NCBI GenBank assembly: GCA_024742875.1
Contig: JANSXP010000004.1
Location: 62,001 to 126,000, forward strand
Length of the DNA stretch: 64,000 nt
DNA from: Planctomycetaceae bacterium
GTDB taxonomy: Bacteria; Planctomycetota; Planctomycetia; Planctomycetales; Planctomycetaceae
Direction: 5' to 3'
Shown here: piece by piece, positions 9,809 to 42,870 of the stretch
Position numbering within the stretch: position 1 is the first letter of the stretch
Layout of the letters: each line of letters starts with the position of its first letter
Position numbers and translations under genes: made by a program
Notes under the pieces: generated by a model
What the model saw: the letters and a program-made list of their open reading frames with translations, nothing else
The model's database searches: none
Told to the model about the DNA's origin: nothing

Positions 9809-10519
9809 ATGAACTCTCTCGAAGTGACTCTGCAGTCATGTCCGGTTTTCTGTTCGCTGATTCCTTCTCAGGTAAGCGACCTCGCCGAGACCTGCCGGGA
9901 ACATCTGGTGAAGGCGGGACGGCGACTGTTCGAATGCGGTCATCCGGCGTCCCACGTCTACCTGCTTAGGGACGGCCAGCTGCAACTGAGCCATCAGGAC
10001 AGCCGCCAGCGACGGGCCATTGTGCGTTCCATCTGGCCTGGCGATCTGTTTGGGGAGTCCGCGCTGACTCCGGCTGCGGAACGAAGGCTTAGCTGCGACA
10101 TAGCCAGAGACTCCCGTGTGATCCAGATTCCCGCCATCGGGCTGCGGAAACTGATGACCGTGAATACGCACTTCGCCATGGATCTGGTGAGCCTGCTGGC
10201 AACCGAGACAGTCGGCCTTCGCTGCGAGCTGGTTTCCGCCATGCTGCACTCCAAGCGACAAAGACTCATCACGCTACTGCAGACACTGGCAGAGACACAG
10301 GGCGTGACACACAAAGAGGAAACGACGATGCCGCTGATTTCTCATCAGGAGCTCAGCGAAATGATCGGGGCCTCCAGAGAAACGGTCACGACCGTGCTGG
10401 GCCAGCTCAAACAGCAGCAGGTGCTGCATTTTGAGGGGCGACGCATCGTTCTGGCCAGTCGTCGGTTTGCGACACTTGCGGCCTCCCAGGACCAGACTGC
10501 CGGGCGGCTGCTGCCGTAA
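9809..10519 (+). CDS. Crp/Fnr-family transcriptional regulator
   Basis: A 236-residue regulator of normal family length. Residues 10-125 form a cyclic-nucleotide-binding-type beta-roll ('LVKAGRRLFECGHPASHVYL', 'SIWPGDLFGESALTP', where the GE..L turn is conserved). A dimerisation helix follows. The C-terminal winged helix includes the recognition helix 'ISHQELSEMIGASRETVTTV' at about residues 170-190. There are no clustered Cys residues of the Fnr iron-sulfur type, so an oxygen-sensing cluster is unlikely. Whether it binds cAMP or another ligand is unknown. The ATG at 9809 is chosen because the upstream extension reads as noise antisense to nothing recognisable. The unusual leader upstream may control it. 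Confidence 0.88.
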   Translation: MNSLEVTLQSCPVFCSLIPSQVSDLAETCREHLVKAGRRLFECGHPASHVYLLRDGQLQLSHQDSRQRRAIVRSIWPGDLFGESALTPAAERRLSCDIARDSRVIQIPAIGLRKLMTVNTHFAMDLVSLLATETVGLRCELVSAMLHSKRQRLITLLQTLAETQGVTHKEETTMPLISHQELSEMIGASRETVTTVLGQLKQQQVLHFEGRRIVLASRRFATLAASQDQTAGRLLP

Positions 10520-10605
10520 CGGATCCGTTGGCCGGCTGTCAGTAACGCGCCTTCCGACAGCGTTCTGCAATGCCAACCCGCGTTTCCGCCGCCCGGTCTC
10601 CGACC

Positions 10606-10661
10606 GCCCGGTTTCCAACGGGCCGGTTTCCAACGGGCCGGTTTCCAACGGGCCGGTTTCC
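10606..10661. repeat. 15-bp tandem repeat, about 3.7 copies
   Basis: Units at 10606-10620, 10621-10635, 10636-10650 and a partial one to 10661 follow the pattern GSCCGGTTTCCAACG. A related but diverged sequence precedes them (near 10590). There are no unique spacers, so this is a simple tandem repeat and not a CRISPR. It lies in the gap between the Crp/Fnr gene and the acetolactate synthase gene. Confidence 0.85.
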
Positions 10662-10686
10662 TGCTGCGCGATGGGCTTAGCCAGTC

Positions 10687-10715
10687 AGCCCCGTGGGCAC
10701 TATGCGCACGGGGCT
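10687..10715. terminator. Strong hairpin after the Crp/Fnr gene
   Basis: AGCCCCGTG at 10687-10695 pairs perfectly with CACGGGGCT at 10707-10715 across an 11-base loop. No T-run follows on either strand, so it is not a classic intrinsic terminator. It may end the Crp/Fnr transcript or form a leader structure for the next operon. The rest of the 364-base gap from 10520 to 10883 holds the tandem repeat and nothing else I recognise. Confidence 0.45.
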
Positions 10716-10883
10716 CACAAAAACGGTCGATTTTCAGACGGCTGCGTAAGGAACCTTACGCCCGCAGCGACCTAAGGTTGTCCGCTGGCTGTTTCAGAAA
10801 CATGACCGGTGTTTGACAGCAGACCAGCCGGCCTGCCAGGCTGCAGAAACTCAAAGTCACGTTCACCGCAAAGAAAGATCAGC

Positions 10884-12530
10884 ATGAAGGCTTCCGACCT
10901 GTTTGTGAAAGCGCTGGAGGCGGAAGGTGTCGAATACATCTTCGGGATCCCTGGCGAAGAGAACCTCGACTTTCTGGATTCGCTGGTGGACTCCAGCATC
11001 AAGCTGGTGCTGACACGTCACGAACAGGCGGCCGGATTCATGGCAGCCACGTATGGACGCCTCACAGGCAAAGCGGGCGTGTGTCTGTCGACACTGGGCC
11101 CGGGGGCCACCAACTTCGTCACGGCCGCCGCCTACGCGCAGCTGGGCGGTATGCCCATGATGATGATCACCGGTCAGAAGCCAATCAAAAGCAGCAAGCA
11201 GGGGCAGTTTCAGATCGTCGATATCGTGGCCATGATGGAGCCGCTCACAAAGTACACACGGCAACTGGTCAGTGGCGCCAACATTCCCTCACGCGTTCGC
11301 GAGGCGTTCCGCCTGGCTCAGGAAGAGAAACCGGGCGCCGTGCATCTGGAACTTCCCGAAGACATCGCGGCCGAAGACACCACCGAAACTGTCGTGCCGG
11401 CAAGCCTGGTGCGTCGCCCGGTGGCAGAGGAAAAAGCCATTCGCGCGGCGGTGCAAAAAATTCAAAACGCGCGGCACCCTTTGCTGGTGGTGGGAGCGGG
11501 CGCCAATCGCAAGCTGACGTGCAACATGCTGCGAGCGTTTGTGGAGTCCTTCGGCATTCCCTGTGTGACCACGCAGATGGGCAAAGGGGTGGTGGATGAG
11601 TCACACTCGCTGTTTCTCGGGAATGCGGCCCTGTCTTCGGGCGACTTTGTGCATCGCGCACTCGAAGAAGCCGATCTGATCATCAATGTCGGACATGATG
11701 TGGTGGAAAAGCCGCCATTTTTCATGCATCCCGGTGGCGTGGAAGTGATTCACGTCAACTTCTTTTCGGCCGCCGTGGACCCGGTGTATTTTCCGCAGGT
11801 CGAAGTCGTTGGCGACATTGCCAACAGTTTCTGGCAGATCAACGAACGACTTGAGAAGCAGGACCACTGGGACTTCTCAAAGATCATGGAAGTCAAACGG
11901 CACGGCGATGCACACCTGCAGGAAGGTGCCGACGACGATCGCTTCCCCGTGTACCCTCAAAGGCTGGTGGCCGACGTTCGCAGGGCCGTCAAAGATCAGG
12001 GCATCATCGCTCTGGACAACGGCGTTTACAAAATCTGGTTTGCCCGCAACTACAAGGCACACGCGCCCAATACGGTGCTGCTGGACAACGCTCTGGCAAC
12101 GATGGGAGCCGGGCTGCCATCCGCCCTTGCCGCCAAACTGGTGTATCCGGATCGGACGGTGACAGCTGTTTGCGGTGATGGCGGCTTCATGATGAACTCT
12201 CAGGAGCTGGAAACCGCCGTGCGACTGAAGCTGGACCTCGTCGTCATCATTCTGCGAGACAACGCTTACGGCATGATCAAATGGAAGCAGTCCAACATGG
12301 GGCTGACAGAGTTCGGCCTCGATTACGACAACCCGGACTTCGTGGAATACGCCAACAGTTACGGAGCCCGCGGACACCGCGTGGGCAGCGCGTCGGAACT
12401 GCTGCCACTGATACAGCGGTGCCATGATCAGTCAGGCGTTCACGTGATCGAAGTCCCCGTCGATTACTCAGAAAACGATCGCATCCTCAACCTCGAAATC
12501 CGGGAACTCAGCGCGGCCATCAGTCTGTAG
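10884..12530 (+). CDS. alsS: Catabolic-type acetolactate synthase (thiamine-diphosphate enzyme)
   Basis: A 548-residue ThDP-dependent enzyme that by family condenses two pyruvates to acetolactate with CO2 release. The N-terminal Pyr domain has the catalytic Glu in 'LTRHEQAAGFMAATYGRLTG' and 'LSTLGPGATN'. A central domain spans about residues 190-330. The C-terminal PP domain has the metal/ThDP motif 'CGDGGFMMNSQELET...RDNAYGMIKW'. The ending 'VIEVPVDYSEND' and overall pattern resemble AlsS more than the biosynthetic IlvB, and no small regulatory subunit gene is adjacent. The start at 10884 gives the standard N terminus ('KASDLFVKALEAEGVEYIFG'). A dehydrogenase gene follows after 28 bases, so the two are probably co-transcribed. 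Another 2-oxoacid could be the substrate. Confidence 0.85.
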   Translation: MKASDLFVKALEAEGVEYIFGIPGEENLDFLDSLVDSSIKLVLTRHEQAAGFMAATYGRLTGKAGVCLSTLGPGATNFVTAAAYAQLGGMPMMMITGQKPIKSSKQGQFQIVDIVAMMEPLTKYTRQLVSGANIPSRVREAFRLAQEEKPGAVHLELPEDIAAEDTTETVVPASLVRRPVAEEKAIRAAVQKIQNARHPLLVVGAGANRKLTCNMLRAFVESFGIPCVTTQMGKGVVDESHSLFLGNAALSSGDFVHRALEEADLIINVGHDVVEKPPFFMHPGGVEVIHVNFFSAAVDPVYFPQVEVVGDIANSFWQINERLEKQDHWDFSKIMEVKRHGDAHLQEGADDDRFPVYPQRLVADVRRAVKDQGIIALDNGVYKIWFARNYKAHAPNTVLLDNALATMGAGLPSALAAKLVYPDRTVTAVCGDGGFMMNSQELETAVRLKLDLVVIILRDNAYGMIKWKQSNMGLTEFGLDYDNPDFVEYANSYGARGHRVGSASELLPLIQRCHDQSGVHVIEVPVDYSENDRILNLEIRELSAAISL

Positions 12531-12558
12531 GCGGCGACATCCTCAATGGAGAACTCTC

Positions 12559-13992
12559 GTGACCATCAAATCCGAATGGCCCTTTTATCTGGCCGGCAAA
12601 CCGGTCGCTCCCAATTACGACCTGGAAGTGACCGACAAGTATTCCGGCGCTGTGGCGGCCCGCGTGGCGATGGCCGACCCTGCCACCATCGACACGGCAA
12701 TCGCAGCGAGCGTTGCCGCCGCTGAGCCGATGGCCGAAATGCGGCCTTACGAACGCCAGCAGGTGCTGATGCACTGCGTGCAGCGTTTCACGGAGCGATT
12801 CGACGAACTGGCGGACGCCTTATGTGTGGAAGCCGGAAAGCCCATCAAGGACGCACGAGGGGAAGTGTCACGCCTGATTGACACGTTTCGCATTGCGGCT
12901 GAAGAATCCGTGCGCATCAACGGTGAGGTCATGAATCTGGAGATCTCTCCCCGTGCCAGGGGCTACTCGGGAATGTGGAAACGCGTTCCCATTGGTCCCT
13001 GTTCGTTCATCAGCCCTTTTAACTTTCCTCTCAACCTGGCAGCCCACAAGGTGGCGCCCGCCATTGCCGCCGGCTGTCCGTTCGTGATGAAACCGGCCAG
13101 TCGCACGCCCCTGGGCGCCCTGATTATCGGTGAAGTTCTGGCGGAGACGGACCTGCCTGACGGCGCCTTTTCCATCCTGCCATGTTCCCGTGACGGAGCG
13201 GACCTGTTTACTGAAGACGATCGACTGAAGCTGCTGAGTTTCACGGGATCGCCGGAGGTCGGCTGGCAGCTCAAAGCTCGCTCGGGCAAAAAGAAGGTGG
13301 TGCTGGAACTGGGAGGCAACGCGGCCGTCATCATTGATGCCGACGCGGATCTGACAGATGCGGTGGAACGGGTGGTCATCGGAGCCTTCTATCAGTCGGG
13401 CCAAAGCTGTATTGGCGTGCAGCGGATCATCATCCACGAATCGATCTATGACGACTTTAAACAGCGTCTGGTTCAGGCAACTTCCACGCTGATCGCCGGA
13501 GACCCCAAACGGGAAGACACGTTCATTGGTCCTATGATCTCAGAAAAAGAAGCCACGCGGCTGCATGACTGGGTGAACGCGGGCGTAGCGGCCGGCGGCA
13601 CACTGCTGTGCGGGGGACAGCGCGAAGGCAGTATGCTGCAGGCCACATTACTGGAAAACGTACCGGCCGATCAGGACATCTGCCGCAAAGAGGCGTTTGG
13701 CCCGGTGGCAGTCCTGAGTCGTTTCTCCGACTTTGACGAAGCGCTGAACACTGTGAACGACAGTGACTTTGGCCTGCAGGCCGGCATCTTCACCCGCGAT
13801 CTTTACAAAGCGCAGCGAGCGTGGGACAGGCTGGATGTCGGCGGCGTCGTAATTGGCGATGTGCCATCCTGGCGGGTCGACAACATGCCCTATGGCGGCG
13901 TGAAAGACAGTGGGCTGGGCCGCGAAGGCATCCGCTTTGCCATGGAAGACATGACGGAAATCCGCAACCTCGTGATTCGCACGCCTCAATAA
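12559..13992 (+). CDS. NAD(P)-dependent aldehyde dehydrogenase
   Basis: A 477-residue aldehyde dehydrogenase superfamily protein that oxidises an aldehyde to a carboxylate. The cofactor-binding block 'GPCSFISPFNFPLNLAAHKV' contains the oxyanion Asn. The general base Glu is in 'VVLELGGNAAVI' and the nucleophilic Cys in 'QSGQSCIGVQR'. The C-terminal 'MPYGGVKDSGLGREG' block is intact, so the enzyme should be active. The GTG start follows GGAG at good spacing. It lies 28 bases after the acetolactate-synthase-like gene. That pairing suggests a pathway where a ThDP enzyme makes or rearranges a 2-oxo compound and this enzyme oxidises an aldehyde. The substrate is unknown; lactaldehyde- or glyceraldehyde-3-phosphate-type members are similar in layout. 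Confidence 0.9.
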   Translation: MTIKSEWPFYLAGKPVAPNYDLEVTDKYSGAVAARVAMADPATIDTAIAASVAAAEPMAEMRPYERQQVLMHCVQRFTERFDELADALCVEAGKPIKDARGEVSRLIDTFRIAAEESVRINGEVMNLEISPRARGYSGMWKRVPIGPCSFISPFNFPLNLAAHKVAPAIAAGCPFVMKPASRTPLGALIIGEVLAETDLPDGAFSILPCSRDGADLFTEDDRLKLLSFTGSPEVGWQLKARSGKKKVVLELGGNAAVIIDADADLTDAVERVVIGAFYQSGQSCIGVQRIIIHESIYDDFKQRLVQATSTLIAGDPKREDTFIGPMISEKEATRLHDWVNAGVAAGGTLLCGGQREGSMLQATLLENVPADQDICRKEAFGPVAVLSRFSDFDEALNTVNDSDFGLQAGIFTRDLYKAQRAWDRLDVGGVVIGDVPSWRVDNMPYGGVKDSGLGREGIRFAMEDMTEIRNLVIRTPQ

Positions 13993-14049
13993 CGAGGGCC
14001 CTCCCGCGGTTGAGTCTGCAGCGGTGGGACAGCTGTAGTGAAACAGAGG

Positions 14050-14565
14050 CTAACGTCTGCGCTCGTACTGGGTCAGCTGATAGCTGCCGCGGTCTTCGTT
14101 CAACAGCACGCGCCAGTCTTCTGCCACGATCGGTGGAAAATACGTTTCACCCGTCCAGTCACCGGGGATGACGCTCAGCAGCATACCGTCTGCCGCGCTG
14201 ATCGCCTGCCGGTAGATCTGCCCGCCGCCCGCCACGTAAATGTGGCGATCAAACGCACGCGCCCGTTCGATGGCCTCCTGCAGACTGGCCACCGCGATAT
14301 CATCGGCTGTCGTCCGTGATGGCGTCAATTGATCCGGCTGACGCGTGATGACAAAACAGCGGGCACTGGTCAGTGTGGGGCCAAAAATCTCATAAGATCG
14401 CCGCCCCAGGATCAGTGTGGCGTCCCGTGTTGTGTCCAGAAAGTGCTGATACTCTTCCGGTACGTCCCACGGCATACCCTCACCGCTGCCGATGACTCGG
14501 TCGGCCGACATGGCTGAGATCATTACGACCTGCGGGCCAGGAGCACTCCACGAAAACACGTTCAC
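14050..14565 (-). CDS. folA: Dihydrofolate reductase
   Basis: A 171-residue protein (157 from the internal ATG at 14523), the normal size for bacterial DHFR, which reduces dihydrofolate to tetrahydrofolate with NADPH. Visible blocks are 'VMISAMSADRVIGSGEGMPW' (first strand and Met20-type loop), then 'DVPEEYQHF' with the active-site acidic residue, 'LILGRRSYEIFG' (NADPH-binding, normally MGRxTxxxxG) and 'HIYVAGGGQIYRQAI'. The GTG at 14565 has its GAAAGG directly abutting. The ATG at 14523 follows AGGTC and begins nearer to the usual position, so the start is uncertain. The neighbour is pgk, transcribed in the same direction. The central 'GRRSYEIFG' is slightly unusual. Confidence 0.88.
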   Translation of the reverse strand: MNVFSWSAPGPQVVMISAMSADRVIGSGEGMPWDVPEEYQHFLDTTRDATLILGRRSYEIFGPTLTSARCFVITRQPDQLTPSRTTADDIAVASLQEAIERARAFDRHIYVAGGGQIYRQAISAADGMLLSVIPGDWTGETYFPPIVAEDWRVLLNEDRGSYQLTQYERRR

Positions 14566-14672
14566 CCTTTCTCGGGCTCCACGGAAAGGCGAAGCCCACC
14601 GAACAGCCCCATCACACGTGCCGGTCGTCGGCTGACGATCGGCACGCGCTGCTGAGGGCTGAACTCACGTCT

Positions 14673-15857
14673 TTAGGCTTCGTCCAGCAGCTCGACCGCG
14701 GCAAACGTCTTACCTTCGAGCATCGCGAGGCTGGCACCGCCGCCGGTGCTCACGTGGGAAACTTTGTCTTCGAAGCCCAGCTGGCGAATCGCGGCGGCAC
14801 TGTCACCCCCACCGATAATGCTCAGGCCGGAACCATTGGCCAGGGCTTCCGCGACAGCGCGGGTGCCTTCGTCAAACGGCTCCATTTCGAACACGCCCAT
14901 CGGCCCGTTCCAGACAACCGTGGCTGCGCCTTCAACAATTTCGGAATAGATGGCGGCCGTCTGGGGACCAATGTCCAGGCCTTCAAAGCCATCCGGAATT
15001 TCGCCGGCGCTGACGACCTCCTTGTTGCACGCGCTGTTAAAATCATCACCGCAGTGCGTGTCGACTGGGAGCACCAGCACGTCCCCACCGGCTTCCATCA
15101 GTTCCTTCGCCAGTTCCACCTTGTCTTTTTCCACCAGGCTCTCGCCGACCTGGCCACCTTTGGCCAGTGAGAAGGTGTAGGCCATGGCCCCGCCGATGAG
15201 CACCTTGTCGCAGATGCCCAGCAGATTCTTGATGACCTGAATCTTGTCAGACACCTTGGCGCCACCCAAAACGGCCACAAAGGGACGGGCGGGCGTTTCA
15301 ATGGCATCCGTCAGGTACCTGATCTCTTTCTCGACCAGGAAGCCCACCACCCGAGGCTTGCCATCCATCGCCTGGGGCACAGCCACCATCGATGCGTGCT
15401 CACGGTGACAGGTGCCAAACGCATCGTTGCAGTAGATGTCTCCGAAGGCGGCCAGCCTGGCGGCAAATTCTGCATCCCCCTTTTTCTCTGCGTCATCAAA
15501 CCGCAGGTTTTCCAGCACGACGACCCCGCCATCCGTCAGCGCGCCCACTTTGGCCGTCGCATCGTCGCCCACCGTGTCAGCCGCCATGGCGACGTCGGTT
15601 CCCAGATGTTCGGCCAGTTTGGCGGCAGCGGGAGCGAGGCTGTATTTGCTGTTGTCCTCACCCATTTTGGGGCGCCCCAGATGACTCATCAGCACCAGGC
15701 GACCACCGCGGTCGACAACTGACTTGATGGACGGCAGGGCCATACGAATACGCCCGTCGTCTGTCACGGTGGTCCCATCCAGCGGCACGTTGAAGTCCAC
15801 TCGCATCAGGACTGTTTTGCCCGCAACATCAACATCAGCAATTGTCTTTTTGGCCAT
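14673..15857 (-). CDS. pgk: Phosphoglycerate kinase
   Basis: A 394-residue enzyme of glycolysis and gluconeogenesis, transferring phosphate between 1,3-bisphosphoglycerate and ADP. Signatures are clear: '[16 protein letters not shown]' at the N terminus, 'LMSHLGRP' with the substrate-binding His/Arg, '[20 protein letters not shown]' mid-protein, '[15 protein letters not shown]' and the C-terminal nucleotide loop '[12 protein letters not shown]', followed by '[17 protein letters not shown]'. Length and motifs match the family exactly. The ATG at 15857 gives the standard N terminus. Upstream is a 354-base divergent gap, so it is probably the first gene of its transcript, with folA downstream. 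Confidence 0.98.
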
Positions 15858-16211
15858 GGCGGCTCGCTCTTCCTTCTACCTTCTGCCGGTACCTTCCAGC
15901 GACGCGTAACTGTGCGGACGGAGGGGACCCAAAAATCAAAATGCAGCTCGTTCCTGCCTGAATCGAGCGGATTCTGGCGAATCGTGTGGCCGATTGAAAT
16001 CCACATCAGGAGCCACCCCGTTTTTCGACCGAATTGCCGACATTCGGCGAAATGAGGCCCCCTGTTTTCTCGTCAAAACGAAGAATCAACCGATTTTTGT
16101 CGTCTGATCGGGCAGACACAGCGTTCGTTTGTGCCCGGTTCCCTGCGGCCTTATCTTCCACAAAAATTCATCACGACGACGCGTCCGCCGGACGCAGCGA
16201 AAGCGATCTGT
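15858..16211. other. Intergenic, divergent promoters expected; nothing recognised
   Basis: 354 bases lie between pgk and a divergent hypothetical gene. Both promoters should be here. Short open frames are present, but none has a ribosome binding site or a recognisable product. I see no strong hairpin. Confidence 0.5.
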
Positions 16212-16697
16212 ATGTCTGACTTCGACGACCGACTCCGCAAAGCCATCAACCGGGGGCAGAAATCCCGGGAAGCCGACGGCGAGGCTGCCGGCCAGAAACA
16301 GGCCTCGGAAGAAGATCTGCGCAGCGTACATTCCGGCCTGCGACTGACGGTCAGCGAGCACATTGAATCGTGCCTGCGGAAACTGTGTGATCATTTCCCG
16401 GGCTTCGAGTACGAAACCGTCATGAATGAAGACGGCTGGGGCGCTCGCATCACCCGCGATGACATCAACCTCAAACAGGGCGTGAACCGCAATCTTTACA
16501 GCCGGCTGGAGATGCTGGTCAAGCCGTTTTCATCGGCCCACATTCTGGAAGTGTCCACCAAGGGAACCATCCGCAACAAGGAATCCCTGAACCGCAACAA
16601 CTTCAAGTTCCTCAGTGAAGCCACCGAAGAAACGCTGCTTGAAATCGTGGACAACCTGGTCATTGAGTTCGCTCAGCAGTATTCCGCCAACGGATGA
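16212..16697 (+). CDS. Conserved-looking hypothetical protein, 161 residues
   Basis: I do not recognise a family. The protein is hydrophilic, without signal peptide or membrane segments, so cytoplasmic. Residues 1-40 are charged and probably flexible ('KSREADGEAAGQKQASEED'). The rest (about 45-161) looks like one folded alpha/beta domain, with 'CLRKLCDHFPGFEYETVMNE', 'DGWGARITRDDINLKQG' and a C-terminal helix 'ETLLEIVDNLVIEFAQQYSA'. The ATG at 16212 is chosen over an upstream in-frame start because the extension is not protein-like. It converges with the thioredoxin-like gene ending at 16725. Function is unknown. Confidence 0.75.
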   Translation: MSDFDDRLRKAINRGQKSREADGEAAGQKQASEEDLRSVHSGLRLTVSEHIESCLRKLCDHFPGFEYETVMNEDGWGARITRDDINLKQGVNRNLYSRLEMLVKPFSSAHILEVSTKGTIRNKESLNRNNFKFLSEATEETLLEIVDNLVIEFAQQYSANG

Positions 16698-16724
16698 AGG
16701 CCGCTTCGGGAATTGCGTCTGTCG

Positions 16725-18032
16725 TTACGACCCGTTCAGCCACTCGCGACGTTCCTTAACGAGTCGCCGCAGTGTGCCTTCCCGAAACGCATTGTCAAAA
16801 CTGCCGTCGGGACGACCGTCGAATTTTTCCGGCGCGATGATGCGGGCGATCTGTTTGCCAAACCCAATCGTCGGGTTCAGATAGAACGACATCGTCGCGT
16901 GCTCCACGCGCAGCTCCTGACTGGCCGCGCTGCGAGACAGTTGCAGATAGACCTGACTAAGCAGCACGGCCGAAGCACCACCGGCTGTCGCCACCTCCCG
17001 AGGCTCAACACCGGCAATCGACTGACGGAGCAGGGCGTACGCTTTGTCCCGCAGCCCGAGGGCGATGTATCGGGACGCCAGCTGCACGGCCGCATTCTGA
17101 TCGGTCGGGTCTTGAGCATTGGCCGCCACCAGGGCCGAGACGGACGAAGACGCCAAACGGGCTGAAGCAGACTGAAACTGCTCGCGAATCTGAGGTGTGA
17201 CGGGTTTGAGCGGTCCCAGTTCTTTGATCGTGTTTTCCCAGTTGCGTGGCGACAGGACAACACCGTGCTCATCAATCAGAAAGGTCTTGGGGACGGCGCC
17301 AAATTTGGTGGCGTAGTTGGGATCCACCAGCGCGGGAAACGTCACGCCAAATTCCTCGTAATAGCGTTTGGCCGGTGGAATGCCTTCCGCATCCAGAGCC
17401 AGTCCCACAACGGTGAAGTCTTCGCCACCCAATTCCTCAAACTTTTTCTGCCACCCGGGCAGATTGTTGCGGCAGAATCACCAGCTCGCCCAGCAGTAAA
17501 GAATGTAACGCCTGCCGAGAAACTCGGAAAACCGCACTTCGCGACCGTCAATCATCGTCAACGGAATATCGGGAACCGTATCCCCCGTGCGGAAGCCGCG
17601 CCCCTGGGGCCAGTCTGCATTATAGCCGACGTCGGCAGCGGCCGGCTGCTCGCCCGGCTCCACAGACACGGAGGCCGTGTCACCGTCGACAGTGACGGTC
17701 ACGGACAGCGCACTTTCAATGGCTGCCACGGCCAGATAATCGCGTCCCTGCACCTGCAGAAAATTGTCCGCGTTCAGCTGCACGGGAATGCAGATGGCCT
17801 GCTCACCTTCAGAGCAGTAGGTTGCCAGTTTGCCGGCCTGCACCACTTCAAACTTCAATGCGGTCGCCCGGCCAACAGCGGCAGCATCCACAAACGTGGT
17901 GCCCCCCTTTAATTTCACACCGATCGACTCATCGGCGGAGACAACTGCGGGCTCAGCGATGGGAAAGCGAATCGCCTTCGCCTGTGCAGGCATCACGGCA
18001 GTGAGTGCGGCGGCGAACAGGACTTTGTGCAT
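16725..18032 (-). CDS. Exported thioredoxin-like protein with in-frame TGA at the redox motif
   Basis: One continuous 435-codon frame is broken only by TGA at 17478-17480 (codon 185). Before it come a signal peptide ('KVLFAAALTAVMPAQAKA'), a beta-rich domain of about 110 residues, and a redoxin start 'GDTVPDIPLTMIDGREVRF...YILYCWASW'. After it comes 'FCRNNLPGWQKKF', then a normal redoxin body ('FTVVGLALDAEGIPPAKRYY', 'FGAVPKTFLIDEHGVV') and a helical C-terminal region. TlpA-like proteins have W-C-x-x-C-R here, so the TGA stands exactly where the first catalytic Cys should be. The spacing is one residue short (TGA-Phe-Cys-Arg). Either selenocysteine is inserted (a hairpin follows directly) or a small deletion created the stop. 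GGAG precedes the chosen ATG at 18032. It diverges from a Nudix gene. Confidence 0.8.
17446..17480 (-). other. TGA codon plus SECIS-like hairpin
   Basis: In the transcript of the thioredoxin-like gene, UGA (17478-17480) is followed at once by UUCUGCC, which pairs perfectly with GGCAGAA at 17446-17452. An alternative inner hairpin pairs UCUGCC with GGCAGA around a CGGGU loop, with the loop starting 21 bases after the UGA. Bacterial selenocysteine insertion elements are hairpins directly downstream of UGA with an apical loop about 16-37 bases away and a G in its first two positions, and the inner hairpin fits that description. The match is by eye; no fold energy was computed and such hairpins are not rare in GC-rich DNA. 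Confidence 0.4.
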
Positions 18033-18131
18033 GAGAAATTCTCCACAACACAGCAAGACAAACGTACGGGCCAGGCCCGCCTGCTACCATAGGGCCCCTC
18101 ATCATAACTCGACTGCAAAGAGAGACTCACT

Positions 18132-18671
18132 GTGAGCCCGGTGATTCCCATCAAAGATTCCTGGAAGTTTTGCCCGCAGTGTGGCGCCGCCACAGATGTT
18201 GTGGGACAGCACCCGTTTCACTGCCGCAAGTGTGAATACCGTCACTATTTCAGTCCCTGCACGGCTGTGGGAGCGCTCATCGTCGATGCGGCCGGCCACA
18301 TGCTGTTTATCGTCCGAGGCAAAGACCCTGGTGCCGGCAAGCTGGGTTTACCGGGCGGTTTTGTGGATGCCCAGGAAACAGCCGAACAGGCACTGGTGCG
18401 GGAAGTCGGGGAAGAGCTCAATCTGCAGGTCACAGAATTTTCCTACCTGGCGTCGTTCCCCAACGTCTATGCGTTCGCAGGCGTGGTCATCGACGTCACC
18501 GACCTGTTCTTTGTCTCTCGTGTGGCGTCATTCGACGGCATCGCGGCGCAGCAGGGAGAGGTGACTGACTGGAAATTCGTGGCCCCGCAGGACGTCTCGA
18601 GCGATCGGCTGGCCTTTGACACCCATCGCCTGGCCATCGAGGCGTATCTGAGTGCAAGCCACGCGGGCTAA
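18132..18671 (+). CDS. Nudix hydrolase with N-terminal zinc ribbon
   Basis: A 179-residue Nudix protein, hydrolysing a nucleoside diphosphate linked to another moiety. A zinc ribbon has four Cys (C14, C17, C31, C34) in the pattern CPQC...CRKC, as in the NADH-pyrophosphatase (NudC) group. The Nudix box at about residues 76-97 reads 'GFVDAQETAEQALVREVGEE', with the G-x5-E-x7-REV-x-EE spacing complete, so metal-dependent catalysis is expected. The start is a GTG at 18132 just after a divergent gap of 99 bases from the thioredoxin-like gene. The protein is shorter than true NudC and lacks its N-terminal domain, so the substrate is not assigned. Confidence 0.9.
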   Translation: MSPVIPIKDSWKFCPQCGAATDVVGQHPFHCRKCEYRHYFSPCTAVGALIVDAAGHMLFIVRGKDPGAGKLGLPGGFVDAQETAEQALVREVGEELNLQVTEFSYLASFPNVYAFAGVVIDVTDLFFVSRVASFDGIAAQQGEVTDWKFVAPQDVSSDRLAFDTHRLAIEAYLSASHAG

Positions 18672-18734
18672 GTCCCGGCTGCTCCGCCTGGTACCGACGG
18701 GGATCGACAGAAGCCCCAGGGATCGACAGAAGCG

Positions 18735-19493
18735 TCAGGGATTTCGTTCTCGCAGATTGGCGTACATCTTCCTGTAGGCATTGGGCGTGATGCCCACCGA
18801 GCGTTTGAACTGTCGGGTGAAGGTACTCTGATCAGAGTATCCGCAGTCGTGCGCGATGAAGCTGATCGGCTCTGTGGTGCGTGTCAGCTTATAGCGGGCC
18901 GCCTCAATTCTTGTCCGAATGATGTACTGCGCGGTGGTCACTCCAAAGATTTCCCCGAGTCGCTTATCCAGCTGGTACACGGACAGATCGGCCAGCTGCG
19001 CCAGCAGTTCGGGAGACAGTGGCTCTTCCATATGCCCATTCACGTGATCCAGAGCCCGCGCCACTCCGCCCAGTTCATCGCGTGCAACGGGCAGGTGGGG
19101 CGGCAGATCCCGACTGAGCCCCGCGAGCCCCAGTACGCGTCCGTCCGTCCCAAACAGCGGTTCTTTCCAGGTCAGACACCAGTCTTTCTGACCGGTCGGG
19201 TACAGGTGTAGCTCAAGCCGGCTGCGAATGATGCGTTGGCCACGCAGCACGCTGCGATCCTGCTCGGCGTAATTCTGGCCGAGTGGGCTGGCAAACAGCT
19301 CATCCACACGACGGCCAATCAACTGGTCTTTGCGTTCGAAACCACAGCGACTCACCAGGGTGGAATTCACATCGACGTATCGCCCCGTTTCGTCCTTGAC
19401 GAAAAAGACGGTGTCAGAGATGGAGTCGAAGACTTCCGTCAGCGAACTGGGTATGCCGTTCAGTTCGATCGAGAGCGAGGGGGGGACGTTCAT
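18735..19493 (-). CDS. PAS-domain AraC-family transcriptional regulator
   Basis: A 252-residue regulator. Residues 12-130 are a PAS sensor domain ('LTEVFDSISDTVFFVKDETG', 'YVDVNSTLVSRCGF', and a closing 'GTDGRVLGLAGLSRD'). Residues 150-245 are an AraC-type double helix-turn-helix, with 'SPELLAQLADLSVYQLDKRL' and the family signature 'AHDCGYSDQSTFTRQFKRSV' followed by 'GITPNAYRKMY'. The PAS ligand is unknown. It is transcribed divergently from the cytochrome/DUF1549 gene beginning at 19837, which makes that operon its most obvious candidate target, though this is inference from position only. The ATG at 19493 gives a complete PAS domain. Confidence 0.9.
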   Translation of the reverse strand: MNVPPSLSIELNGIPSSLTEVFDSISDTVFFVKDETGRYVDVNSTLVSRCGFERKDQLIGRRVDELFASPLGQNYAEQDRSVLRGQRIIRSRLELHLYPTGQKDWCLTWKEPLFGTDGRVLGLAGLSRDLPPHLPVARDELGGVARALDHVNGHMEEPLSPELLAQLADLSVYQLDKRLGEIFGVTTAQYIIRTRIEAARYKLTRTTEPISFIAHDCGYSDQSTFTRQFKRSVGITPNAYRKMYANLRERNP

Positions 19494-19836
19494 AAGACCA
19501 TAGCGTTCACTGGCATTCCGACCCCGAATGCACCAATTCTGGACGATGTGTCAGTCTTAAGTCGTTTGCCGCCTGGCTCAACGGAAACCCTGATCACCTG
19601 TTGTGAAATGGGGACATCATGACGACAGGTAGAGGCATCGTGGCACCTGCAGCGTCTGCTCAGGTGAGGAAGAAGAGGAAACCCTGAAAGGGATGTCGTG
19701 CATTCTACGCTTCGACTTGGCCCGGAACAGTGGGTATCATCTCTCACCACAGTTCGTGATTACCGCCATCATGGATTCCTGAATTCGAAGAGTGACTGTC
19801 ACGAGGTACGATTTGCTGCCCACGTATGACTCACAC
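19494..19836. other. Intergenic, divergent control region; nothing recognised
   Basis: 343 bases lie between the PAS-AraC regulator and the divergent PSD1-type gene. Promoters and an operator for the regulator would be expected here. I see no convincing repeat pair, and short frames in the region have no recognisable product. Confidence 0.5.
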
Positions 19837-22800
19837 ATGACCACTGTGCGAAGTGGATTCTCGCTCCACCTCCCTGCGTGGCTAGCCCTTGCCCTGGGAG
19901 TTGTCGCGAGTGCAACGTCGGTTGGGGCTGACGAGAATCGGCGTCTGTTTGACGGCGCGGCGGCCGTCCTCCAGGAGCACTGCCTTTCCTGTCACAGCGG
20001 CAAACAGCCCAGGGGACAGTTTTCTGTTGAGACCGCCGATGAGTTCTTTGCGGACGGGTACGTCACGCCCGGTGAGTTCGCAGACAGCCATCTGGCGGAC
20101 GTCGTCACGCCGATCGACGGACAAGCCCGGATGCCCCGGCATCAGCCCCCTTTGACAGCAACGGAAAGGGCCGATCTGGCAAACTGGATCAGCGCCGGAG
20201 CGTGGTGGCCGCCACAGCACAGGATCGAGGATGCCGTGGTGGCCGACTTTGATGCGTGGTCGTATCGTCCGCTCTCTGCGGTCGACTGCCCGTCCGCCGA
20301 CAGTGACTGGGTGCGCACGCCGATTGATGCGTTCATCGCGCAGGGACACAAACAACAATCCCTCACGCCCGCTCCAGTCGCCGATCGCCGAACACTGATC
20401 CGTCGACTAACGTTCGATCTGACGGGACTGCCACCGACGCCCGAGCAGGTGGAGCAGTTTGTCAACGACGATTCGCCCGACGCCTGGCAGACGGTGGTCG
20501 ATCGACTGCTCGACTCACCGCACTATGGCGAACGCTGGGCGCGTCACTGGCTGGACGTGGTCAAATACGCGGACACCCACGGATACGACAAGGACAAGCT
20601 GCGACACAACGCCTGGCCCTACCGCGACTATGTGATCGATTCTCTCAACGCCGACAAACCATACGCGCAGTTTGTTCAGGAACAGCTGGCAGCGGATGTG
20701 CTGTTTCCTGACAGGCCGTCCGCCATCCGCGGACTCGGTTTTCTGGCCGCCGGCCCGTGGGACTTCATTGGGCATGTGGAAGTGCCCGAGTCCAAACAGG
20801 ACGGACTGGTGGCCCGCAATCTGGATCGCGACGATATGGTGTCCAATACGCTCAACACCTTCTGCAGCCTGACGGTGCAGTGCGCACGCTGCCATAACCA
20901 TAAGTTTGATCCCATCACGCAGCGTGACTACTACGGACTGCAGGCGATTTTCGCAGCCGTGGACCGGGCCGATCGTCCGTTTGATGATTCCTCAAAGACG
21001 GGGCAGCAGCGACAGGATCTTCTGGCGAAAAAGCGGCAGCTCGAAGCACGCCTGACAGAACTGACAGCAGCCGTCGCGCTGTCAAATGACGGGCAGCACG
21101 TGCAGTCTCAGATTGCCAGGTTCCATGCGGTGCCCGTTCGCAAGTCACCACAGTTCGGCTACCACAGTCGTATTGCCGCCTCGCCCGATGAACAAAAGTG
21201 GGTGCAGCTGCAGTGGGATCAGCCACAGGCGATCTCCCGGTTAATCCTGCACCCCTGTCATGATGAGTTCGCCGGAATTGGTCACGGCTTCGGATTCCCC
21301 CGTGAACTTCAGGTTGATGTGCTCGCAGGATCGAACTGGAAAACGATCTGGGAATCTTCAACCGTCCATCGGGAGGCCGGAGTGGCGGCTGTGACGGTGC
21401 CCATCGGTCAGGACGTCACCGCCATCCGGGTGGTGGCCACGCTGCTCGCCCCGCGAAAAAACGATTACATCTTTGCCCTCGCCGAACTGGAGGCGCTCAG
21501 CGAGCAGTCCCGCAATCTGGCAGACACGGCGACCATCACGGCCAAAGACAGCATCGAAGCGCCTCCGCGATGGCAAACGAGCCACCTCAGCGATGGCCGT
21601 TTTCCGCAGGTCGGCACGCGCGAACAGCAGCAGCACTATGAGCGGCTGTTCGAGCGTTATCGAGTGGCCCTGGCGGCGGCATGGACACCACAGCGAACGG
21701 CAGAACGCCTGCAGCTGAAGGAACAGATCGCCCGCGTGACGGCTGAGCTGGAATCGCTGTCCGATCCGCAGATGGTGTACGCCGCTGCCACGACGTTTGA
21801 GCCGCAGGGGAATTTTCGTGCGACCAATGGAAGCCTGCGACCGATCCGCCTGCTGCATCGCGGCAATGTGGGGCAGCCCGGCGAGCTGGTTGCCCCCTGC
21901 GTGATCCCCACAGGGGCGGGGGACGCTCATCATCTGTCTTCAGAACTCTCCGAAGGCGAACGCCGAGCCGCGCTGGCGAGGTGGATCACCAGCACAGACA
22001 ACCCGTTCGTGTGGCGTTCCATCGTTAACCGAGTGTGGCAGTATCACTTTGGGCGCGGGCTGGTGGCGTCCCCCAATGACTTTGGACGCATGGGACAGCA
22101 GCCGTCGCACCCGCAGCTGCTGGACTGGCTGGCGATCCACTTTCGTGACTCAGGACAGTCACTCAAGAGTCTGCATCGTCTGATCGTCACCAGCAGTGTG
22201 TACCTTCAGTCCTCGGCGAATCATGTCGGCAATGCGGACATCGACAGCAGCAACCGTTTCCTGTGGCGTTTTCGGCGTCGGCGACTGGATGCTGAGGAAA
22301 TCCGAGACAGCATGCTGGCTGTCAGCGGTGTGCTGAACAAAAAACGCGGAGGCCCTGGCTTTTATCTGTTCGCGCTGGAACGCACTCAACATTCGCCGCA
22401 CTATGAATACCACCAGTTCGATCCGGCCGATCCGGCGTCGCACCGCCGCAGCATCTATCGATTCATTGTGCGTTCTCAGCCTGACCCGTGGATGACATCG
22501 CTGGACTGCGCGGATTCCTCGCAGAGCACGCCCACACGCACAGAAACCGTCACCGCACTGCAGGCGCTGTCACTGATGAACAGTCGTTTCACCGTGACCA
22601 TGGCCGACCTGTTTGCCGGGTCAATCGCGGAGAAAACGGACGACCTGCCGCAGCAGATCGAACTGGCACTGCGGCTCACCGTGCAGCGGCCGCCCCACCC
22701 GCAGGAATTGGAGCAGCTGACCGCCTATGCCCGGCAACATGGCCTGAGCAATCTGTGCCGACTGTTGTTCAATCTCAGCGAGTTCGTTTATGTGGACTAA
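19837..22800 (+). CDS. PSD1-type protein: cytochrome c, DUF1549 and DUF1553
   Basis: A 987-residue exported planctomycete protein. After a signal peptide (about residues 8-30) comes a planctomycete cytochrome-c domain with heme motif C49-LS-C52-H. DUF1549 follows (about 130-355; 'LIRRLTFDLTGLPPTPEQVE', 'HYGERWARHWLDVVKYADTH') and contains a second C349-AR-C352-H. The middle includes a beta-sandwich-like segment and a charged coiled part. DUF1553 is at about 680-980 ('RAALARWITSTDNPFVWRSI', 'NRVWQYHFGRGLV', 'LDAEEIRDSMLAVSG'). The ATG at 19837 replaces a GTG 45 bases upstream because it starts at the signal peptide. Three bases after its stop comes the DUF1501 gene, its usual partner. Biochemical function is not established; degradation of complex carbon is often proposed. 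Confidence 0.92.
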   Translation: MTTVRSGFSLHLPAWLALALGVVASATSVGADENRRLFDGAAAVLQEHCLSCHSGKQPRGQFSVETADEFFADGYVTPGEFADSHLADVVTPIDGQARMPRHQPPLTATERADLANWISAGAWWPPQHRIEDAVVADFDAWSYRPLSAVDCPSADSDWVRTPIDAFIAQGHKQQSLTPAPVADRRTLIRRLTFDLTGLPPTPEQVEQFVNDDSPDAWQTVVDRLLDSPHYGERWARHWLDVVKYADTHGYDKDKLRHNAWPYRDYVIDSLNADKPYAQFVQEQLAADVLFPDRPSAIRGLGFLAAGPWDFIGHVEVPESKQDGLVARNLDRDDMVSNTLNTFCSLTVQCARCHNHKFDPITQRDYYGLQAIFAAVDRADRPFDDSSKTGQQRQDLLAKKRQLEARLTELTAAVALSNDGQHVQSQIARFHAVPVRKSPQFGYHSRIAASPDEQKWVQLQWDQPQAISRLILHPCHDEFAGIGHGFGFPRELQVDVLAGSNWKTIWESSTVHREAGVAAVTVPIGQDVTAIRVVATLLAPRKNDYIFALAELEALSEQSRNLADTATITAKDSIEAPPRWQTSHLSDGRFPQVGTREQQQHYERLFERYRVALAAAWTPQRTAERLQLKEQIARVTAELESLSDPQMVYAAATTFEPQGNFRATNGSLRPIRLLHRGNVGQPGELVAPCVIPTGAGDAHHLSSELSEGERRAALARWITSTDNPFVWRSIVNRVWQYHFGRGLVASPNDFGRMGQQPSHPQLLDWLAIHFRDSGQSLKSLHRLIVTSSVYLQSSANHVGNADIDSSNRFLWRFRRRRLDAEEIRDSMLAVSGVLNKKRGGPGFYLFALERTQHSPHYEYHQFDPADPASHRRSIYRFIVRSQPDPWMTSLDCADSSQSTPTRTETVTALQALSLMNSRFTVTMADLFAGSIAEKTDDLPQQIELALRLTVQRPPHPQELEQLTAYARQHGLSNLCRLLFNLSEFVYVD

Positions 22801-22803
22801 CCG

Positions 22804-24258
22804 ATGAATCGACCTGGCACACCTCGCAGACAATTCGTCCGGCAGCTGGGCAGCGGCTTTGGTGGCCTGGCGCTGGCGATGCTGGAGCGGACCACGGCCG
22901 CCGAAGATTCAGGCGCCATGCGGGTGCTGCATCATCCGCCGCGCGCCAAACGTGTCATTCAGCTGTTCATGGGGGGAGCTGCCAGCCATCTGGACCTGTG
23001 GGATCACAAACCGCTGCTGGATCAGCGGCACGGTCAGCCATCGGACTTTGGCGAACACGTGGAAGCTTTTCAGAACGGGCTGGGCCCGTGGATGAAGTCA
23101 CCGTTTCGATTTCGTCCCTGTGGAGAATGCGGCCACCGCCTCAGCGACGTGGTGCAGCCCCTGGCAGACTGCGTGGATGACATGGCGTTCGTCCACAACA
23201 TGGTGGGCAAAACGGGCGTTCATTCCCAGGCCACCTACCTGCAGGCAACGGGTTTTGACCGCCCCGGATTTCCGGGCATGGGATCGTGGATCAGCTATGC
23301 GCTCGGTTCACTCAATGAGAATCTGCCCACCTTCGTGGTCCTGCCGGACCACCGCGGATTCGCCAGCAACGGTCCGAAAAACTGGGGGTCCGCCTTCCTG
23401 CCGGCCAGCAGCCAGGGCACGGCCGTGTTTCCTCAGCGAACCAACCCCATCGAAGATCTGATTCCGCAGGCCCCCTTCATCAACGCCGGCAGCGAACGGG
23501 CCACGCGGCAACTGCTGCAGAAAATGAACGGACACTTTCTGGCCAATCGCCCTGATGACTCACGGCTGGAAGCTCGTCTGCGAACTTACGAACTGGCGGC
23601 CCGGATGCAGCTGAGTGCCCCAGAGGCGCTGGATCTTTCGCAGGAACCGAAACACATCCTCGCGATGTATGGACTCGATCGCCCTGGTGCCACCTATCCG
23701 TCGCATATCAATCCGGAAGAAGAAGCCGAGTATTTTGGACGCAAGTGTCTGATCGCCCGTCGGCTGGTCGAGCGGGGCGTTCGGTTTGTGCAGATCTGGT
23801 CGGGCAACGACAACAGCTTCCCCAGACGCAACTGGGACTCTCATGAAGACATTGCCCGCGACCACGGGCCGCTGGCGCACGGGATGGCGGTTGGTGCAGC
23901 CGCGCTGCTCAAAGACCTCAAACAGCGGGGCCTGCTGGAAGACACCATTGTGCTGTGGACGACAGAGTTTGGCCGCATGCCCAGCACGCAGGGCAGTCGC
24001 GGTCGGGACCACAACCCGTATGTATTTACCAACTGGCTGTGTGGTGGCGGCATTCGCGGCGGCATCACCGTCGGAGAGTCCGACCAGTGGGGTTACAAGC
24101 CACTGGATCGCGACAACCCCACACAGGTTTACGACATCCACGCCACGATCCTGCATCTTCTGGGCATCAATCACAAGCAACTCACAGTGCGGCACGATGG
24201 CATCGATCGCCGGCTCACGGATGTTCACGGACACGTTATCGAACGACTGACTGCCTGA
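22804..24258 (+). CDS. DUF1501 protein with Tat-type signal
   Basis: A 484-residue DUF1501 protein, a sulfatase/phosphatase-fold relative found in planctomycetes beside DUF1549/DUF1553 genes, as here. The N terminus 'PRRQFVRQLGSGFGGLALAM' is a twin-arginine signal, so it is probably exported folded. Family blocks are 'VIQLFMGGAASHLDLWDHKP', 'MAFVHNMVGKTGVHSQAT', 'RLVERGVRFVQIWSGNDN', and near the C terminus 'TIVLWTTEFGRMP' with 'GRDHNPYVFTNWL', giving metal-binding-type Asp/His residues. No Cys-x-Pro-x-Arg motif is present, so it is not a formylglycine sulfatase. It is almost certainly co-transcribed with and works alongside the preceding protein; the exact reaction is unknown. Confidence 0.92.
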   Translation: MNRPGTPRRQFVRQLGSGFGGLALAMLERTTAAEDSGAMRVLHHPPRAKRVIQLFMGGAASHLDLWDHKPLLDQRHGQPSDFGEHVEAFQNGLGPWMKSPFRFRPCGECGHRLSDVVQPLADCVDDMAFVHNMVGKTGVHSQATYLQATGFDRPGFPGMGSWISYALGSLNENLPTFVVLPDHRGFASNGPKNWGSAFLPASSQGTAVFPQRTNPIEDLIPQAPFINAGSERATRQLLQKMNGHFLANRPDDSRLEARLRTYELAARMQLSAPEALDLSQEPKHILAMYGLDRPGATYPSHINPEEEAEYFGRKCLIARRLVERGVRFVQIWSGNDNSFPRRNWDSHEDIARDHGPLAHGMAVGAAALLKDLKQRGLLEDTIVLWTTEFGRMPSTQGSRGRDHNPYVFTNWLCGGGIRGGITVGESDQWGYKPLDRDNPTQVYDIHATILHLLGINHKQLTVRHDGIDRRLTDVHGHVIERLTA

Positions 24259-24448
24259 AGACTGTGTCGCAACGTCGCCACGACCGCCCCGCTCCTGCAA
24301 TGACGCGCTTCCGTCCGGGCAGACTCAATTTGACTCGGAACCGTTTCCACCTGCGCCCTGAGGCTTCGAATTTTCGACTAAGCATGGCGGAAGCTGTATC
24401 GGTGCGTTAGAAACAGGCGTTCGAATTTCGTTTGGGGTTGAGGTGAGT

Positions 24449-25948
24449 ATGCGATCTGGTCAATTCTGCCTTTTTCTGCTGGTTCCGCTGCTTCTGTCGA
24501 GTCTGCCACAGCCGTCGGCTGCCGCAGAATCCTCCGGGGACCACAGCCCACCCAATGTGCTGCTGATCATCACAGACGAGCACAACTTTCGCACGCTGGG
24601 CTGCTATCGCGATTCCCTGCCCCGTGAGCAGGCGGAAATGTGGGGGCTGGGTGCCACAGTCCCCACGCCACATTTTGACCGCATCGCCAGCGAAGGGGTG
24701 CTGTGCACACGCGCTTATGCCACGTCTCCTGTCTGCTCTCCGTGTCGGGCGGCGATGATCACCGGTCGGTATCCTCACAGGACGGGTGTGCCCACCAACA
24801 ATGAGGTTCTGGATCGATCCATTCCCACGCTGGCCGACCGCCTGAATAACGCCGGTTATCGCACGGCATTCATCGGCAAATGGCATCTGGCGGGCGACGG
24901 CAAACCAGAGTGGTCGCCCCAGGTGGATGGTGGGTTTCAGGACAAGCGGTTCATGTACAACCGGGGGCACTGGAAGAAGTTCGGTCTGGAGGACGGCCGG
25001 CCGCGGGTGGCGGCACGCAGGAAAGGCCAGCCCAGTTACGATGTCGCAGGCGCCGATGAAACATCGTTCGCCACAGACTGGCTGACCGATCGTGCCATCG
25101 ACAGTGTCACCGACACGTCCACCAATCAGCCATTTTTTACCGTTGTCAGCTACCCGGATCCGCATGGTCCCAACACGGTCCGCACACCCTATGACACACG
25201 GTTTGACAATCTGCCCTTCATGCCGCCTCGCACCTACCAAACAGGCAGGCCGGCCCCCAAATGGCTGGGAGGCGGCAAGAATCACCCCATCTTTCGTGGC
25301 AAAGACATGAGCCGTTATTTTGGCATGGTGCAGTGTCTGGATGACAACATGGGACGCCTGCTGGCCGCGCTGGAGAAGGCGGAACGGCTGGACAACACGC
25401 TGTTCATCATGACCAGCGATCACGGCGATTTGTGTTACGAACACGACCGCCAGAACAAAGGCAACCCATACGAAGGCTCAGCGCGGGTGCCCATGCTGCT
25501 GCGATTCCCACCACAAATTGCGGCCGAGCAGGTTTACACGCAGCCGGTGGGCACCGTTGACATCACGCCCACTGTGATGGGCTTTCTGAACCTGCCGGCC
25601 AGCGAGCAGGACCAGGGTCGCGACCTCTCGGGCCAACTGGCCACGGCCGGTAAGTCTTCGTCGCAGCCTGGCATGACGTTCCTGAGAAACTCGGGCAAAG
25701 CGGCCGGCTGGGTGGCGGCAATTGACTCCCGCTACAAGCTGATCCTGTCGGTGAATGATCAGCCGTGGCTGTTCGATGCCGTCGAAGACCCGGATGAACT
25801 GGAGAACTTCTTCGGGCGCCCCGGCACCGAACAGGTCACTCAAAAGCTGGCGGCTGGACTGCGGCAGTACGGTCAGGACAACGACGATCCTCATCTGACC
25901 AACCCGAAGATTGCCGCCTCGCTGCAGCAGATCCTTGACGCCAACTAA
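24449..25948 (+). CDS. Secreted sulfatase
   Basis: A sulfatase of 499 residues. A signal peptide covers about residues 1-26 ('FCLFLLVPLLLSSLPQPSAA'). The catalytic site is C96-S-P-C-R, which satisfies C-x-P-x-R with a second Cys inside the motif. The first metal block is 'LLIITDEHNFRTLGCY', with Asp-Glu in place of Asp-Asp. 'FIGKWHLAGDGKP' carries the Lys/His pair and 'MTSDHGDLCYEH' the later Asp/His. A GTG at 24443 is in frame two codons earlier; either could start. AGGTGA lies immediately before. It is the first of three same-strand genes (sulfatase, sulfatase, DUF1080 protein). The layout resembles choline-sulfatase-like and S1 exo-sulfatases, but the substrate is not assigned. Confidence 0.9.
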   Translation: MRSGQFCLFLLVPLLLSSLPQPSAAAESSGDHSPPNVLLIITDEHNFRTLGCYRDSLPREQAEMWGLGATVPTPHFDRIASEGVLCTRAYATSPVCSPCRAAMITGRYPHRTGVPTNNEVLDRSIPTLADRLNNAGYRTAFIGKWHLAGDGKPEWSPQVDGGFQDKRFMYNRGHWKKFGLEDGRPRVAARRKGQPSYDVAGADETSFATDWLTDRAIDSVTDTSTNQPFFTVVSYPDPHGPNTVRTPYDTRFDNLPFMPPRTYQTGRPAPKWLGGGKNHPIFRGKDMSRYFGMVQCLDDNMGRLLAALEKAERLDNTLFIMTSDHGDLCYEHDRQNKGNPYEGSARVPMLLRFPPQIAAEQVYTQPVGTVDITPTVMGFLNLPASEQDQGRDLSGQLATAGKSSSQPGMTFLRNSGKAAGWVAAIDSRYKLILSVNDQPWLFDAVEDPDELENFFGRPGTEQVTQKLAAGLRQYGQDNDDPHLTNPKIAASLQQILDAN

Positions 25949-25990
25949 ACAGACGCAAAGCGCCCGATCTTCCCCTCTGCGGATCATACG

Positions 25991-42784: not shown

Positions 42785-42870
42785 GCCCTGGTGGCGGAAT
42801 TGGTAGACGCACCAGACTTAAAATCTGGGGTTCCGTAAGGAGCGTGCGGGTTCAAGTCCCGCCCGGGGTA
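42785..42870 (+). tRNA. tRNA-Leu (anticodon UAA)
   Basis: An 86-base type II tRNA. The acceptor strand GCCCTGG at 42785-42791 pairs with the 3' strand ending at the discriminator A (42870), allowing G-T pairs. The D arm is GGCGGAATTGGTAGACGC. The anticodon stem CCAGA/TCTGG encloses loop CTTAAAA, so the anticodon is TAA. A long variable arm and a T arm GCGGGTTCAAGTCCCGC follow. The long variable arm and anticodon both indicate leucine, decoding UUA and UUG. CCA is not encoded. Confidence 0.97.

Follow-up and report, generated by a model that had tools for sequence, protein, structure and literature searches.

The minus-strand gene at positions 16725..18032 of the window (the whole 64,000-nucleotide stretch of Planctomycetaceae bacterium DNA that was analyzed) is very probably a real selenoprotein gene. 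With a probability of about 95%, we conclude that it encodes a three-part, probably exported protein in which one in-frame UGA is read as selenocysteine (Sec), by means of a hairpin and SelB, and forms part of a U-x-C redox center. The TGA is conserved, the genome holds a complete set of Sec genes, the hairpin is conserved, a homologous Cys form exists, and the product has a recognizable domain make-up. The gene apparently represents a divergent and undescribed branch, with the motif U[FST]C, of a known selenoprotein type.

Reading frame and domain make-up

A preliminary description of this DNA had noted a 435-codon frame broken by a single TGA at 17478-17480, and both the coordinates and the frame were borne out, on the minus strand. 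The frame begins with an ATG at 18032, preceded at a distance of 8 nt by a GGAG (18041..18044) which, from its sequence, is likely to be the ribosome-binding site, and it ends with a TAA at 16725..16727. Its sole internal stop is the TGA at 17480-17478, codon 185 (U185, the predicted Sec), which gives the local protein sequence YCWASW-U-FCRNNLPGW. The codon for Cys187, the second residue of the UxC motif, lies at 17472..17474 and shows no variation in alignments A1 and A3. Reading with translation table 11 splits the gene into frames of 192 aa and 235 aa, and the active site is lost; the read-through product, by comparison, has 435 aa and can be aligned with homologues over its length. The TGA occupies the position of the first redox Cys, as had been proposed: it aligns with the first Cys of the WA(T/S)WCxxC motif in ordinary CxxC relatives.

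Three parts can be distinguished in the read-through protein, behind an N-terminus which, judged by eye, resembles a signal peptide. A strand-rich N-terminal domain with Cys73 and Cys81 (residues about 35-130; 17643..17930, minus strand) was delimited from the AlphaFold model and the alignment. It is followed by a thioredoxin-like domain of the AhpC-TSA/Redoxin, ResA-like kind (residues about 148-270; 17223..17591, minus strand), recognized by Pfam, NCBIfam, and Foldseek, and by a C-terminal helical, TPR-like part (residues about 275-432; 16737..17210, minus strand), defined by helices in the AlphaFold model. The Pfam matches to AhpC-TSA (E 2.9e-13) and Redoxin (E 6.3e-11) are above cut-off and both span the TGA. 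Matches to TPR_20 and TPR_19 fall below the Pfam cut-off in the window protein, whilst TPR matches lie above it in two relatives (L087 and L090). The AlphaFold model, built with 8 sequences, has a mean pLDDT of 76.2 and a pTM of 0.74; block values are 77-91 in the N-terminal domain (residues 41-130) and a moderate 55-88 in the thioredoxin-like domain, with 60 at the active-site block. The top Foldseek matches in the PDB are thiol-disulfide oxidoreductases, including ResA (E about 1e-6); the peroxiredoxins AhpE and Bcp, and complexes of TlpA with its partners, are also listed.

Relatives with selenocysteine, cysteine or neither at the active site

When 150 genomes of the same family were searched with the protein, 13 had a match at E <= 1e-10; in seven of these (the window's own genome included) the match is long, and in six it is to the thioredoxin domain. 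Profile searches returned seven matches at E <= 1e-30 among 170 family genomes, and two at E <= 1e-40 among 392 genomes of the phylum, namely the window's own genome and G222. A single-protein query against genome contigs found no relative; an alignment query against genome contigs confirmed eight loci. Five of these share a tested 400-base stretch with loci found earlier; the other three are L038 (isolate NIOZ-UU7), which is a new full member, L043, a partial member at the edge of its contig, and L044, which has CxxC.

The U[FST]C branch comprises eight sequences with a TGA in one column (the window gene, L021-L025, L038, and L043). The motif is UFC in 6/8, USC in L023, and UTC in L038, and the other seven members are 45-69% identical to the window protein. 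On either side of the TGA, codon positions 1 and 2 are more conserved than position 3 in the five pairs compared. The window gene, L021, L023, L024, and L038 align in frame through the N-terminal domain. In the other three members, all from draft assemblies, the N-part is missing or unreadable: L022 has no readable N-domain, L025 has frame shifts in this part, and that of L043 cannot be read in frame. Such damage may be due to assembly error or to decay. The contig of L043 is titled as a Bacteroidetes MAG and belongs to a 2.6 Mb bin (G535); since a bin with this title and with no tRNA-Sec above cut-off carries a planctomycete-type gene, L043 is likely to be a binning stray. Two further loci were excluded from the motif counts, because the thioredoxin domain is absent from both. 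At L046, in G222, the reading frame continues from the N-domain, Cys pair included, into the C-part, whilst at L026, in G127, a similar gap leaves a frame shift; G222 retains tRNA-Sec and selB.

Among NCBIfam models the best match is NF041054 (WAxxUGC_long, 'ResA-like WAxxUGC motif-containing protein'), at 91.5 bits. This is below the cut-off of 300 bits, so that the window protein falls outside the family as curated, and its WASWUFC does not match the WAxxUGC motif. The order of parts (N-domain, ResA-like domain, TPR-like tail) is, however, the same, as seen in the alignment with L083-L087 and L089. None of the 150 family genomes has an NF041054 match above 300 bits. The 392 phylum genomes contain eight matches at E <= 1e-25; two are stop-free, and each of the other six has a single in-frame TGA. 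The six read WASWUGC, apart from FASWUGC in L085, and only L083 (306.6 bits) exceeds the cut-off. One of the stop-free genes, L090 in G308, is a Cys form with WASWCTC. The other, L088:1447-2715, has the same build with FASWDNS and no Cys pair in the N-domain, and is, to judge from its sequence, a redox-dead relative.

Taken together, the alignments place a TGA in the same column of 14 sequences, and a Cys in L090. The preliminary description had argued that chance decay would be unlikely to strike precisely this codon, a view that gained support from the same-column TGA in 7/7 covering branch members and in the six UGC relatives; rather than scattered stops only, the homologues have the TGA at this very codon, together with a Cys form of CxC spacing. 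It had also remarked that the motif is one residue shorter than CxxC, which is correct, and had suggested a three-base deletion as a possible origin, which did not hold. UxC or CxC is present in 15/16 aligned rows, the exception being the DNS of L088, and this spacing thus appears from the alignment to be an old, shared trait of the family. Therefore, a private three-base deletion in the window gene is not indicated, and this idea was rejected. NF041054 also matched 24 loci (L059-L082) that have no in-frame TGA at this motif; L069 gave no row, and all 23 aligned sequences have CxxC and were set aside as ordinary.

A tree of the thioredoxin domains was built from 29 rows, 13 of them CxxC outgroups picked from those available. 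The eight U[FST]C rows group together in a single clade (support 98/96), and the combined set of U[FST]C, UGC, CxC, and DNS rows is separated from 12/13 CxxC rows (99/96). The remaining CxxC row, L044, has a very long branch and lies inside the set as the neighbor of the U[FST]C clade (88/79, unstarred). With respect to the DNS row, the UGC rows do not group as a single clade.

Selenocysteine genes, the candidate SECIS hairpin and other readings of the TGA

The search for Sec genes that had been proposed as a check on the candidate selenoprotein was positive. The window's genome (8.18 Mb in 168 contigs, 98.1% complete) contains a tRNA-Sec (77.8 bits, cut-off 47; anticodon tca according to ARAGORN), selB (334.8 bits, cut-off 242.25), selA (485.5 bits, cut-off 267.9), and selD (256.3 bits, cut-off 125). 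The selA frame and a frame for a Pyr_redox_2-SelD fusion are adjacent, with a four-base overlap (L033:5588-9207). Curated cut-offs were used because, at loose E-values, the models for tRNA-Sec, selB, and selD also found matches in all 14 control genomes. Among the 150 family genomes selA occurs in 65, compared with 7/7 genomes that have the branch gene or a remnant of it (six with the TGA gene, and G127, with only the domain-less remnant). This association is confounded by ancestry, since three genomes of the same genus (G042, G077, and G098) have selA without a match to the branch profile. selB was present in 8/8 further genomes tested, G222 and G127 included, and tRNA-Sec was above cut-off in 8/10 genomes tested; the two exceptions are G120, in which selA and selB are present, and the L043 bin, G535. 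Within the window, Rfam gives a single match at the gathering score, an ordinary tRNA on the plus strand (42785-42870).

Downstream of the UGA there is a candidate bacterial SECIS hairpin, UCUGCC-CGGGU-GGCAGA (17447..17463, minus strand), with a loop of 5 nt that starts 20 nt after the UGA, a stem of 6 bp, a G at loop position 2, and an energy of -7.9 kcal/mol. These values agree with the bSECIS rules in the accessible text of a 2026 review (PMC13188914), which are a loop of 3-9 nt, an upper stem of 4-16 bp, a G in the first two loop positions, a distance of 16-37 nt from the UGA, and an MFE <= -7.5. The hairpin can be written CTGCC-(5 nt)-GGCAG, and its loop is at the same place in 13/14 UGA genes, with 4-6 bp; in the 14th, L085, it is slightly shifted, and the same arms pair best around a loop of 3 nt. 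Over six base pairs and 14 sequences, 80/84 cells are paired. The outermost pair occurs as U-A, C-G, and G-C, and is the only one of the six with a two-sided change. When partners were shuffled, the observed pairing and covariation score was reached in 0/500 cases, whilst the counts of changed pairs and of pair types were reached in 448/500 and 445/500, respectively.

The coding sequence itself was taken into account by a synonymous-codon null, in which 5000 runs were scored for paired cells, Watson-Crick cells, and sequences with the inner five pairs intact. For all 14 genes, 0/0/0 of the 5000 runs were as high as the observed values; for the eight branch genes the numbers were 7/23/34, and for the six UGC genes, which played no part in suggesting the hairpin and have 35/36 cells paired, they were 0/0/2. 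In an initial run with the eight branch genes and 1000 replicates, the observed number of paired cells was reached once, that of intact stems twice, and the consensus energy 10 times. This null ignores relatedness among the sequences. In a control that keeps relatedness, 241 gapless 48-nt windows were ranked by stability, and each of the first ten includes the hairpin; the control covered 7/8 members (L043 was excluded because it is partial) and scored only those stretches with letters in all seven. For the 48 nt of the window gene, a different hairpin, with a 14-nt loop, gives the lowest energy (-12.9 kcal/mol) and makes use of the same 3' arm. Taken by itself, the conserved hairpin does not reach -7.5 in 8/14 genes, the weakest being that of L023 (-3.4, 4 bp). 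L088 and L090 were excluded from the hairpin counts because they lack a UGA. The conserved hairpin is absent from both, and their protein sequence there differs too; L088 has another hairpin (-5.6) that conforms to the loop, stem, distance, and G rules, so that geometry alone is not specific.

The TGA could in principle mark a pseudogene: a thioredoxin-like gene that once had CxxC and either suffered a nonsense mutation or lost three bases. Such decay would fit the damaged-looking N-parts of L022, L025, and L043, and the loss of the thioredoxin domain from L046 and L026. However, the TGA column is common to 14 sequences, conservation persists downstream of it, the stop-free homologue L090 has CTC at equal spacing, and Sec genes are present in the genome, and we regard the pseudogene reading as very improbable. 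Equally improbable is some other decoding of the TGA, whether by near-cognate suppression or because TGA is a sense codon. Any UGA can leak, but TGA terminates 3/9 neighboring genes checked, among them a DUF1501 gene (22804-24258) for which the Pfam model is matched over positions 1-389 of 390; this gene is complete and ends in TGA, and therefore TGA is not simply a sense codon in this genome. The conserved hairpin and the full set of Sec genes, moreover, fit Sec insertion. A sequencing or assembly error at the TGA is the least probable of all: although draft assemblies are the source of the window and of most relatives, TGA stands at this codon in separate records and assemblies. The reading of the gene as a selenoprotein gene, first put forward as a candidate in the preliminary description, is supported by the Sec genes of the genome, the TGA-bearing relatives, and the Cys form.

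Predicted function and comparison with known systems

As a selenoprotein, the product would consist of a signal-like N-terminal stretch, the N-domain with its Cys pair, the ResA-like thioredoxin domain, and the TPR-like tail. During translation, SelB carrying Sec-tRNA(Sec) would bind the hairpin 20 nt after the UGA, and the UGA would for this reason specify selenocysteine rather than termination. Sec185 would act outside the cytoplasm, where it would attack disulfides (or peroxides); the selenenyl-sulfide that it then forms with Cys187 would be re-reduced by a partner. The protein is thus predicted to be an extracytoplasmic thiol/selenol-disulfide reductase in which Sec185 attacks and Cys187 resolves. 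The thioredoxin-like part might instead work as a peroxidase, or reduce metal-site partners in the manner of TlpA, more than serve as a general disulfide reductase; this seems less likely to us but deserves mention, given that the best Pfam match is AhpC-TSA and that AhpE, Bcp, and TlpA-partner complexes appear beside ResA in the Foldseek results. Against it, the top family and most of the top structures are ResA-like or other thiol-disulfide oxidoreductases, and the TxxU motif of Sec peroxiredoxins, as given in the accessible text of PMC13188914, is absent.

The Cys73/Cys81 pair is present in 12/12 aligned rows that have the N-domain and a U or C active site, and absent from the DNS protein L088. 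We tentatively consider that it might be an internal partner that resolves or re-reduces U-x-C, in which case the protein would be a self-sufficient selenoenzyme outside the cytoplasm, its substrates guided by the TPR part; this is a rather doubtful proposal, and L046 and L026, which keep the Cys pair without a thioredoxin domain, speak against such a relay.

The gene context gives no function, since no close neighbor is shared between the window gene (window 10001-26000) and loci L037-L043, compared over flanks of about 4 kb or less. Two ORFs at L041 show 27-29% identity to ORFs of the window, one with a DUF1501 match (about 22.8-24.3 kb) and the other with a sulfatase match (about 24.4-25.9 kb); they lie at different distances from the gene, and we take them to belong to large families. 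L037 and L042, which come from one genus, share neighbors with each other. The nearest genes in the window (NUDIX, PGK, DHFR, and an ORF without a Pfam match) suggest no redox operon. A neighboring 188-aa ORF at 16131-16697 has no Pfam match at E <= 0.01.

In the literature, our searches found no paper on the WAxxUGC motif and none on Fuerstiella with selenocysteine, and for selenoproteins with a redoxin, TlpA, or UGC motif they found only the 2026 review (PMC13188914). Table 1 of that review lists a 'UGC-containing TlpA disulfide reductase family protein' among selenoproteins, which is probably NF041054; no U[FST]C ResA-like entry was found in its accessible text, where the same build counts as a separate subfamily when its Sec motif differs. 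Sec machinery and selenoproteins occur in other planctomycetes, according to the accessible text of PMC4807772, and the supplementary candidate table of that paper may contain a branch member. The accessible text of the Global Ocean Sampling survey (PMC2398784) describes 'Prx-like (UGC-containing)' selenoproteins, which have an AhpC-TSA/Prx-like domain and U-x-C as in the window protein, but with UGC. One 'Prx-like' UXC sequence was reported from the Sargasso Sea (PMC1088965). It is U-x-C like the window protein, and since its middle residue, which is not visible in the accessible text, could be that of either form, it is possibly an earlier sighting of U[FST]C.

With ResA and TlpA (PDB 3c73, 1st9, 4nmu, and 1jfu), the window protein shares the thioredoxin-like fold; however, these proteins have CxxC and no Sec, whereas the window protein has UxC in place of the CxxC active site of the superfamily, and it scores 47.6 bits against the ResA model NF002854 (cut-off 170). 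L090 is of the same build, N-domain Cys pair and TPR-like tail included, but has Cys for Sec, no stop, and no conserved hairpin. The closest known system is NF041054, with which the window protein has in common the part order, the Cys pair of the N-domain, the WASW-U-x-C spacing, and the hairpin distance. The two differ in the middle residue, which is G in NF041054 and F, S, or T in the window branch, and the branch has an extra stretch in its C-part and forms its own clade. With the U[FST]C branch, a known Sec family reaches further than its curated model, and UxC is seen not to require Gly in the middle. Versions of one build with Sec, with Cys, and with no redox residue offer material for learning what Sec adds in U-x-C.
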